DNA of 53,426 bases from Zetaproteobacteria bacterium CG_4_9_14_3_um_filter_54_145 (GTDB taxonomy: Bacteria; Pseudomonadota; Zetaproteobacteria; Mariprofundales; Mariprofundaceae). The position numbers were made by a program, and so were the translations under genes. Under the pieces are notes generated by a model. It ran no database searches. It was not told the DNA's origin and was given only the letters and a program-made list of their open reading frames with translations. Positions 2,926-7,940 of the stretch are shown in pieces; positions within the stretch are counted from its first letter, which is position 1, and the number at the start of each line of letters is the position of its first letter. The DNA is taken from positions 1-53,426 of the forward strand of contig PFXI01000050.1 of the NCBI GenBank assembly GCA_002791575.1, in the 5' to 3' direction.

Positions 2926-5574
2926 ATGGACAAGCGCACAAACAAGGCCGCAACTGATATTGATCTTGATACAACAATACCCTCCTATTATGTAGGCATT
3001 GGGGCATCCGCAGGTGGTCTGGAAGCGATCGAAGAGTTTTTCAAGCATGCGCCTACCGATACAGGCATGGGCTTTATTGTTGTTCAACATCTATCCCCGA
3101 CCCATAAGAGCTTGATGGTTGAACTGCTTTCCCGCAATACCGATATGCCGGTACTGCGTGCCGAAGATGGCATGAAGGTGAAGCCTAACTCCGTCTATCT
3201 GGTTCCACCCAATCATAATCTGAAGATTTTCCATGGCGCCCTGCTACTGGATCAGCAGGATCACGACCGCGGTTTAAACCTGCCCATTGATATCTTCTTC
3301 AAATCGCTGGCGGAAGACCAGGAGGACAAAGCCATTGCCATTGTCCTGTCGGGTACAGGCAGCGATGGTGCACGCGGTATTCGTACCATCAAAGAGAAAA
3401 TGGGCATGGTCATGGCTCAGGATGCAGACTCGGCCAAATTTGACGGTATGCCAAAAAGCGCCATTGCTACCGGCATGTGTGATTTCATTATGGCAGCTGT
3501 CGATATGCCTATGCAGTTAATGACCTTCGCCAAACACCCCTACGCCAGCCGATCCGAGCTCTCCGGCACCATTAAATCCGACGAAGACGGTTTAACCCGC
3601 ATCTTTTACCAGCTACGCGACAAAACCGGGGTAGATTTTACATTTTATAAGCCCAGTACCCTGCTGCGCCGCATTGAGCGCAGGCTGCTGGTCAATCAGT
3701 TACATTCGCTCGATGATTATGTTCATTTTATGGAGTCCAATTCAGCCGAAGTGATGACCCTGCATCGGGAGCTGCTGATCGGTGTAACCAACTTCTTTCG
3801 CGACCGCAGGGCTTTTGACCTTCTAGAAGAGACGTATCTTCCCGAACTGATTCGTCAACGCCGCGGCAGAGAGTTCCGTATCTGGGTGGCCGGTTGCTCT
3901 ACCGGCGAAGAGGCCTATTCGCTGGCAATCCTCTGTCGCGAACTGATTGAAAAGATGGGTATAGCGGTAGATGTGAAAATATTTGCCACCGATGTAGATA
4001 GAAATGCCGTTATAAAAGCGGGTAATGGTGTATTTTCAGACTCTATTGCAGCCGATATACCATCGAATCTGCTGGCAAAATATTTTTCCCATCAGGACGA
4101 CTCTTATCACATTACCCGCAACATTCGTGAAATGGTTGTCTTTGCTCAGCAGAATCTGATCAAGGATCCGCCGTTCACCAATATGGACCTGATCACCTGC
4201 CGCAACTTGCTGATCTACCTGCAGCCTGTTCTTCAGCGCAAGGTCATGGAGTTGTTTAACTTCTCCCTGAGACATGAAGGCATACTGTTTCTCGGCGCCA
4301 GCGAGACAATCGGGGATATGAGCAACTACTTTGAACCGCTACACAACAAGTGGAAACTCTATCGCTCTCGCGGCAAAAAGAATGTAGGCGCAGTCATTAC
4401 CGATCCGGTAGCCATGATGCAACGGCACGAAGCCCTTCATGAACATGCAAATTTTCCGCCCAGCATTCGCCACCATCATGTGCAGGATCACGAACGCATG
4501 CTGGAACGCCTGGTACAGTCAATCGCCGGCGACTATCTGCCGCTGGCACTGGTTGTGAATGAACAGCTTGAGCTGCAATATATTGCAGGTGATACCGATG
4601 GATTCTTCAAGCTGCCATCCGGCAAGGTACAGAACAATATTGCCACGATGGCCATCAAAGAGCTGGCGATTCCGATTTCAACAGGTATCCAGAAGGCATT
4701 CAGTAAAGAACAGGATGTGATCTACTCCAATATCAGCATCAGGCACCGGGATACCACAGTACTGTATGATATGAAGGTGAAGCTGCTACCGAAGAAACAG
4801 GGCCAGCTACCGCTTGCCGGCGTATTTCTCATCGAGAACCGCGTACTTCCCAGAATTGAAATTGGTGGGGATGCAGCTCAAACATATGACGTCAGCAAAG
4901 AAGCCCAGCAGCGCATTGTGGATCTGGAGCAGTCCCTCCAGTTTCATAAAGAGAACCTGCAGGCCACAGTGGAGGAGCTGGAAACCTCCAACGAGGAGTT
5001 ACAGGCGACCAACGAAGAGTTGATGGCCAGTAATGAAGAGCTGCAAAGTACAAATGAAGAGCTGCAATCGGTGAACGAGGAGCTTTATACGGTCAATGCC
5101 GAATACCAGAATAAAATCATTGAACTGACCGAATCAAATAACGATCTGGAGAACCTCAATGCCAGCACCCAGATTGCGACCATCTTTCTTGATGAAAACC
5201 TGAATATCAGAAAGTTCACACCGATGTTTTCACGCATCTACAAAATTATCAGCTCAGATGTGGGCAGACCGTTCAGCCACCTTTCGCACCTCCTGCTGGA
5301 TGTGAATCCCCTGAAGCTGATTGAACAGGTACTGAATAAAAACAATCATATTGAACAGGAAGTCGTCACAGATCAGGGCGACTGTTTCCTGATGCGCATA
5401 CAACCCTACCACATTGCTGCAGGCATCTTTTCAGGGGTCGTGCTCACATTTATTGATATTAATGCCTACCATGCAGAACACCGACTGTTGCAGTCTGTAC
5501 TCGATACCATGCTGGGGATGCCATTATCATCATTGATGAAGAGGGCAACATCCATCAATGTAACCCTGCAGTAA
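2926..5574 (+). CDS. CheB-CheR fusion chemotaxis-type methylesterase/methyltransferase, frameshifted near its 3' end
   Basis: Domains in order: CheB methylesterase (about 20-200) with catalytic Ser28 in GIGASAGG, His55 in VVQHLSPTH and Asp147 in GTGSDGARG; CheR methyltransferase (about 215-480) with the SAM motif [14 protein letters not shown]; a Glu/Asn-rich coiled coil (about 660-740) of repeated [10 protein letters not shown]-type heptads; then PAS domains. ATG at 2926 follows AGGGG with 7-base spacing; the longer frame starts at a TTG at 2899. The frame ends prematurely at 5574. The second PAS domain continues in frame 3 from 5517 and finally in the original frame to a TGA at 5842-5844 that overlaps the next gene. 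Such fusions feed sensory adaptation or PAS-kinase signalling. No receptor genes lie nearby. Confidence 0.9.
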
Positions 5575-5844
5575 ACACGATCTTCGGTTACACAAAAAGT
5601 GAAGTAGCAGGCAAGAATATTGAGCTGCTTATCCCCGCCGGACCCGATCGCACTCACCATAGCGGATATATCAAACATTACCTGCAGACAGGTGATGCAA
5701 AGATCATCGGCATCGGGCGCAAGGTAAAAGCATTGTGCAAGGACGGGACAATCCATAGATGTACACCTCTCGATCAGCGAAGTAAAAGAGGGCGAGCGGC
5801 GATTCTTCACTGCCGCCATGCGTCATCTGGTGGGTGGAGAATGA
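5517..5844 (+). pseudogene. Displaced C-terminal PAS segment of the CheB-CheR fusion
   Basis: Read in frame 3 from 5517, the DNA encodes a well-formed PAS core ([30 protein letters not shown]). After about 5754 the original frame resumes with DVHLSISEVKEGERRFF and ends HLVGGE at TGA 5842-5844. Two single-base changes explain this: one base missing in the GGGG run at 5514-5517 and one extra C at 5753-5754. They compensate, so the intact ancestor would be about 972 residues. The restored stop overlaps the next ATG as ATGA, which supports this as the true gene end. The cause could be sequencing error or recent mutation. Confidence 0.8.
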
Positions 5845-7940
5845 GCCCTACGGAAAATATACGCAAAGCCGGCTTACAGTTTGCTGAGCTCGAGAGAAAG
5901 GCCAAGAACCTGATCAATAGCCGTCAGGGCCCGGAGGCGGATCATAAAAGCCTGGACGGTGCGAGAGACCTGATTGAGCAACTGCAGATCTATCAGGCGG
6001 AGCTGGAGATCCAAAATGAAGAGTTGCGCGATGCGCAGCAAGCGTTGCTGACATCCCGCAACAGACTCTCCTACCTCTACCATCAGGCCCCGGTTGGTTA
6101 CATCTCGGTGGACAAGAACGGATTCATCCGTGAAGTGAATCAGCGCCTGCTTAACATGTTGGGCATGACCATGGATGCGTGCCTGAATAAACCATTGGTA
6201 AATTTTATTCTCGATAGTGACCGAGCTATCTTTTTAGGGCGTTTTCGGGCATTTTTTGATATGCCAAAAGGCAAACACATGGAGATTTGCCTGCAAAAAA
6301 GCGACAAATCGGCACTCTATGCACTGCTGGAAGGTCGACTGGCCGAGGATATGCCTGACTCAACAGCCAACGATAAAGAGTTCATGCTACTCACGATTAG
6401 CGATATAACTGCCCGCAGGGATGCCGAGGCCAATCTGCGGCTAGCAGACAAAATCATCCATACTGCGCAGGAAGCGATTTTAGTTACCGATGCACAGGGT
6501 ACGATTCTGAATGTAAACCCGTGCTTTGAGAAAACCACCGGTTATACTAAAGATGAAATTATCGGAAAAAATCCGCGGATACTTCAATCCGGACGTCAGA
6601 ACAGCTTGTTTTATAATGTCATGTGGAAGCAGGTGCTCAACACCGGCTGTTGGCAGGGCATAGTCTGGAATAGACGCAGGAATGGTGAAGAGTATGCAGA
6701 AAAGCTGACGATCAATGCAATTTATGGTGATCGCAAGGAAGTAACCCACTATGTGGGTGTATTTACCGATATCACCGATCAACTCGAGCTGGAAGAGAAA
6801 CTGCGCCAATCGCAGAAAATGGAAGCAATCGGCACGCTGGTAGGTGGCATTGCCCATGACTTCAATAACATGCTGGCCGGTATTGTTGGCAACCTCTATC
6901 TGGCAAAGAAAAAGTCGGATAAGCAGGCCGAACTCATTCCCCATCTGGAAGTTATCGGCACCTTAAGTGACAAAGCTGCTGAAATGATTGCACAAATGCT
7001 TACATTCGCGCGCAAAGGCATCGTTCAAATGAAGCCGCTCGCCCTGAATCACTGTATTAATGAGATTCTGACCGGCGCTGGCTGGGTAAGCATCCCTGAG
7101 AACATCCGACTGAATATCAATCTTTGCGAGGAAGATCTGGTCATTAAAGCGGATCAAACGCAGATACAGCAGCTGGTGATCAATCTGTTAAGCAACGCCC
7201 GCGATGCACTGGCAGGTCAAAGCCAGCCGGCCATAGAGACACATCTGACCAGATACTGCCCTGACAAATTCTTCCTGTTAGAGCACGATCTTGCCAATGG
7301 TGTGGAATTTGCCCATTTAACAATATCGGATAATGGCTGCGGCATCGATAGCGAACAATATGCACGCATTTTCGAACCGTTCTACACAACAAAAGAGGCG
7401 GGCAAAGGCACCGGTCTGGGTCTGGCCATGGTGTACGGGGCCGTGCAAACCCATGGCGGCGTTATTCAGGTAGAAAGCATTCAGGGAGGAGGAACCAGCT
7501 TCCATCTGTACCTACCTTTAATTGATATGGTTCTGAATGATAACAGGGATGCTCCTCTTCAGATGGCTGCGGGCAAGGGTGAAATCATTCTTGTGGCAGA
7601 TGACGATGCTGTTGTGCTTGATGTAACAACTGAAATTTTAGCCAACCACGGTTATCGCATTCTACAGGCTGATGACGGCCGCAATGCATGGAATCTGTTT
7701 GAATCCCATTTTGCCGAAATTGATCTTGTCATACTGGATATCATTATGCCAAACATGAATGGCGATGAGGTCGCTGAAAAGGTTCGTCAACTGCGCCCCG
7801 ACATCCCGATCATCTTTGCTACAGGCTATGACAGACAGCACGTGTTGTCGGGCGATAACGAACTGGAAAACAGCACGGTTCTCAACAAGCCCTTCCAGTA
7901 CGATCATCTGAGTCATCTGATGAGAACACTGCTGGATTAG
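5841..7940 (+). CDS. Cytoplasmic hybrid histidine kinase (PAS-PAS-HisKA-HATPase-REC)
   Basis: A 699-residue soluble kinase: N-terminal coiled coil (about 40-75, [15 protein letters not shown]), PAS (about 75-195), PAS with PAC (about 205-320), HisKA with phospho-acceptor His339 in [11 protein letters not shown], a HATPase domain with DNGCGI and GTGLGL boxes, and a C-terminal receiver with acidic DDD and phospho-acceptor Asp in LVILDIIMP. The start ATG at 5841 overlaps the restored stop of the CheB-CheR fusion (ATGA) and follows GGTGGAG; a longer frame from 5733 only reads back into the displaced PAS segment. The pair probably forms one signalling pathway. The stop overlaps the convergent aat stop. 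A close paralogue lies at 9104-11113. Confidence 0.92.

Follow-up and report, generated by a model that had tools for sequence, protein, structure and literature searches.

Does a CheB-CheR gene whose last PAS domain changes reading frame twice within 240 bases record real mutations, errors in a draft sequence, or a frame change that the cell uses? We examined this question in a window comprising the whole 53,426 nucleotides of contig 60 (C60) of a draft genome, G000, which totals 2,852,407 bases in 124 contigs. The CheB-CheR ORF as it stands contains PF01339, PF03705, PF01739 and PF13596, with its CheB, CheR_N, CheR and PAS domains all in one frame, and 482 of 708 positions in the part compared are identical to the protein of G001, a genome of the same genus. 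The ORF leaves the ancestral frame after residue 863, so that the final 19 of its 882 residues are foreign (Table 1).

Table 1 Features of the CheB-CheR locus and other frame-broken loci of G000; positions are those of the window unless a locus is named
Feature	Position	Strand	Remark
CheB methylesterase-CheR methyltransferase-coiled coil-PAS_10 ORF as it stands	2926..5574	+	882 aa
First frame change, GGGG	5514..5517	+	by spacing, two surplus bases fit better than one missing
Core of the last PAS domain	5517..5753	+	frame set back one base relative to CheB-CheR; PF00989
TAA stop of the CheB-CheR ORF, within the PAS core	5572..5574	+	
Second frame change, CC	5753..5754	+	one surplus base fits
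Final PAS strands, CheB-CheR frame regained, ending in TGA	5755..5844	+	TGA inside ATGA
PAS-PAS-histidine kinase-response regulator, intact	5841..7940	+	699 aa; ATG overlaps the ancestral stop
Other frame-broken loci, as judged by eye	L076:13537, L116:18354, L110:14223, L140:5562, L140:8829, L151:2327		

Reading frames of the last PAS domain

Between the two sites, the frame next to that of CheB-CheR is open and encodes a PAS core, which a profile search matched to PF00989 at C60:5508-5762 (45.9 bits, E 1.1e-11). From 5755 the CheB-CheR frame resumes with IDVHLSISEV...LVGGE and closes at a TGA (5842-5844) that overlaps the ATG at 5841. To this extent, the arrangement is as given in a preliminary description of the locus. 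Each segment was translated in all frames and compared with the last 115 residues of the G001 orthologue, using 2000 shuffles; frame 0 of segment 5517-5753 scored 86 and frame 1 of segment 5755-5841 scored 46, neither being reached by any shuffle (0/2000 each), while the remaining two frames of each segment scored within the shuffles. The two sides therefore match one intact relative in different frames, as is characteristic of a frameshift-disrupted gene, and the C-terminal PAS domain of the window copy is encoded but split over two frames, unlike that of G001 and G015. An antisense ORF of 117 residues on the minus strand (5466-5819) was rejected as a real gene, the plus-strand PAS match accounting for this stretch.

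Read through both sites, the protein has 971 residues (863+79+29, from the coordinates) in comparison to the actual 882, in agreement, as a net figure, with the loss of about 90 residues proposed earlier; the frame changes affect 108 PAS residues. The frame of the PAS core stays open from 5463 to 7940, through the kinase, and a mechanically called kinase ORF begins at TTG 5733, yielding 735 residues rather than the 699 obtained from ATG 5841, which is the false N-terminal extension that the same description had foreseen. In G001, the kinase gene lies directly after the CheB-CheR stop, and the orthologous kinase has 695 residues.

Base count at the two sites

The preliminary description held that one base is missing from the GGGG run, that one C is extra at the second site, and that the two shifts compensate each other. 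The extra C was borne out by alignment, in which a direct join (one surplus base) scored 768 vs 759. At the first site, the direct join of TML to DAIIII scored 768 vs 757 with one extra residue, so that two surplus bases explain the sequence no less well than one missing base. Through a loose-motif scan of 1.06 Mb of G000, six PAS starts were matched, the window's own among them, and the other five showed, as judged by eye, the direct-join spacing without an extra residue. The sequence thus appears to favour a total of three surplus bases, two in the G run and one C, over one missing and one surplus base, a preference that depends on one gap cost and falls short of proof. Nor can the changes be called compensating: the frame kept by the ribosome meets TAA 5572, and then more stops, before the second site, and the second frame change therefore cannot rescue the first.

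Neither site lies in an unusual repeat within the 1.06 Mb sample, the longest exact matches being 14 and 12 bases against a random median of 13. The joining of sequences at a repeat during assembly was accordingly rejected for both sites within that sample.

Conservation and constraint in the genus

A protein search of 23 genomes of the genus, G000 included, returned matches of E 1e-100 or better in seven. The orthologues of G001 and G015 (69-70%) are single open frames of 992 and 987 residues, and the last PAS domain is continuous in both (2/2) of the orthologues long enough to show the region, so the suggested alignment with homologues does reveal the PAS continuation. The nearest orthologue, in G016 (84% amino acid identity), is interrupted near residue 600 by an insertion sequence, whose transposase start resembles DDE_Tnp_1_assoc (PF13808) with 29.1 bits over 37 residues, the family cut-off being 32.3. 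The end of this element (L062:15873-16159, G016:C76) has 34 matches in G016 and nine, 79-94 bases long, in G000, and no matches in G001, G015 or G011. A paralogue of the same genus (L044, 847 residues) stops after PAS_10, and the shortened layout therefore occurs naturally.

Between G001 and G015, a single pair of close genomes, the last 110 residues gave dN 0.032 and dS 0.059 (dN/dS about 0.53), whereas the other 810 residues compared gave dN 0.010 and dS 0.065 (dN/dS about 0.15). The last PAS domain thus diverges faster than the remaining protein in this pair. Between G000 and G001, identity is 24% in the PAS core vs 67% in the coil and PAS_10 part (126 of 188 positions).

Frame-broken loci in the genome

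An ab initio survey, combined with reading by eye, recovered seven frame-broken loci in the sampled 1.06 Mb (1,059,484 bases) of G000, the window gene counted. The first 692 kb gave 34 candidate rows; 14 translations were read besides the window gene, and the 19 other rows were dropped since the antisense strand scored higher. A further 367 kb, surveyed with the antisense filter built in, left 10 rows, three of which were N runs (L140:6258, L150:11077 and L152:5285). Survey rows that were neither broken loci nor N runs were ordinary junctions, shadows or unclear. We take the other six broken loci, from their translations or, for L076, from Pfam, to be a PAS/HD-GYP sensor, a Tll0287-like sensor followed by a GGDEF-like ORF, a PAS histidine kinase, an ExeA-like ATPase, a pyruvate formate-lyase-like gene and an oxygenase-like gene. 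By our reading, most of the shifts seen in G000 sit in short base runs, not in long homopolymers. A homology-based frameshift survey with proteins of relatives was too insensitive, missing the window gene itself, and its two pairs (in L068 of G000 and L064 of G001) were left out of the count.

Simulated shifts were recovered by the detector at 92/150 (61%) in G000, 89/150 in G001 and 48/150 (32%) in G011. In 340 kb of G001, the survey returned five rows, all with a higher antisense score (the translation was read for one of the five) and no clear break, and 320 kb of G011 gave zero rows; at the rate of G000, about three breaks would be expected in these two samples. The contrast between G000 and its sister genomes is weak, because recovery in G011 is low. 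Corrected for 61% recovery, G000 carries about 11 broken loci per Mb, which we regard as ordinary for a draft bacterial genome. With seven such loci in the sample, the window gene is therefore not exceptional.

Within its 13 kb, the sampled contig L140 (G000:C18:20001-33282) has two frame breaks, one of them inside a 29-base stretch common to L147, along with two N runs, and is probably poorly assembled. Elsewhere, L155 (G000:C107:12974-13324) encodes a multi-PAS protein in which one PAS domain is interrupted by an in-frame TAG.

Origin of the frame changes

On balance, we lean slightly towards genuine mutation of a domain under weak constraint: the dN/dS values indicate such constraint, the nearest orthologue is itself cut by an insertion sequence, the two sites are without unusual repeats and the window is without an N run. 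In a CheB-CheR-PAS-PAS protein, two small indels would have thrown the final PAS domain out of frame, and a stop inside this domain would now end the protein, leaving CheB-CheR-coiled coil-PAS_10 with a 19-residue foreign tail. The product is likely an 882-residue protein without the last PAS domain, which presumably still works, and the kinase would have its own start at ATG 5841.

Two base-calling or assembly errors, with the real gene intact at 971 residues or one more and adjoining the kinase via ATGA, form a serious competitor, to which we give somewhat less than an even chance. The assembly is a draft whose sampled 1.06 Mb contains 12 N runs and six other broken loci, of which two are in the N-bearing L140 and one of these in a repeat. 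Two indels within 240 bases of an otherwise well-formed PAS core could mark a poorly read stretch, and the apparent excess of indels in G000 over the sister genomes, a weak contrast, is what error would give. However, the window's 53 kb contig contains no N run and no further clear frame break was seen in it, and neither site lies in an unusual repeat within the sample. The short contigs and small N gaps also resemble an assembly from short reads, where indel errors of a single base are uncommon, and the broken loci that could be recognised all appear to belong to gene types that are usually dispensable. The earlier proposal of two sequencing errors or recent mutations thus named the right pair of explanations, although its count of one base lost and one gained is not supported.

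Programmed -1 frameshifting at G GGG, producing a CheB-CheR-PAS-kinase fusion with the kinase in the same frame, is very improbable. The PAS-core frame is indeed open as far as the end of the kinase, GGG could plausibly re-pair after a one-base backward slip, and the genus contains CheB-CheR-like ORFs 1617 and 1632 residues long; by our arithmetic, however, a 29-codon open stretch would arise by chance about once in four. The shift site is not conserved, the orthologues needing none and G001 lacking GGGG there, and the site has no standard slippery heptamer. The downstream fold, in a model that leaves out pseudoknots, had a z of -1.54, with 13/200 shuffles as stable, and even the fusion would lack the end strands of the PAS, as these are encoded in the other frame, so that the domain would not be rebuilt.

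That the kinase truly starts upstream, with the PAS core forming its N-terminus, fits the shared open frame, but it is scarcely credible given that the frame lacks ATG, GTG and TTG between 5463 and 5733 and that the orthologous kinase begins just past the CheB-CheR stop. We regard as equally remote a real and used pair, in which this lineage drops or swaps the last PAS domain through the frame changes and slippage at GGGG gives a small share of the CheB-CheR-PAS-kinase fusion.

Comparison with known systems

The window copy shares domain order and sequence with CheB-CheR-PAS fusion proteins, with a kinase gene directly after it, and differs in the two frame changes within its last PAS domain, which G001 and G015 encode in one frame. 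It resembles an ordinary frameshift-disrupted gene in its small indels, its premature stop and its intact orthologues elsewhere, and differs by having two indels in 240 bases that together add up to a multiple of three, being unremarkable in other respects. A limited literature search found no account of such a frame-broken CheB-CheR gene. A broken gene end or a draft-sequence error is an ordinary kind of event and no new mechanism. At most, the locus indicates that the last sensor domain of this CheB-CheR protein is loosely conserved across the genus.

Annotation pipelines flag such disrupted genes as 'frameshifted'. At this locus, automatic annotation would shorten one signalling protein and lengthen the next, and the label 'compensating pair' would mislead annotation of the CheB-CheR gene.

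PF00989 matches number 122 in G000 (2.85 Mb) vs 91 and 97 in two related 2.5 Mb genomes. At the start of the window, positions 67-96 share about 30 bases, as seen by eye, with sequence flanking an N run in L150 (5679 onwards), in the manner of a repeated element's end, and these shared bases are probably the other end of an insertion sequence.
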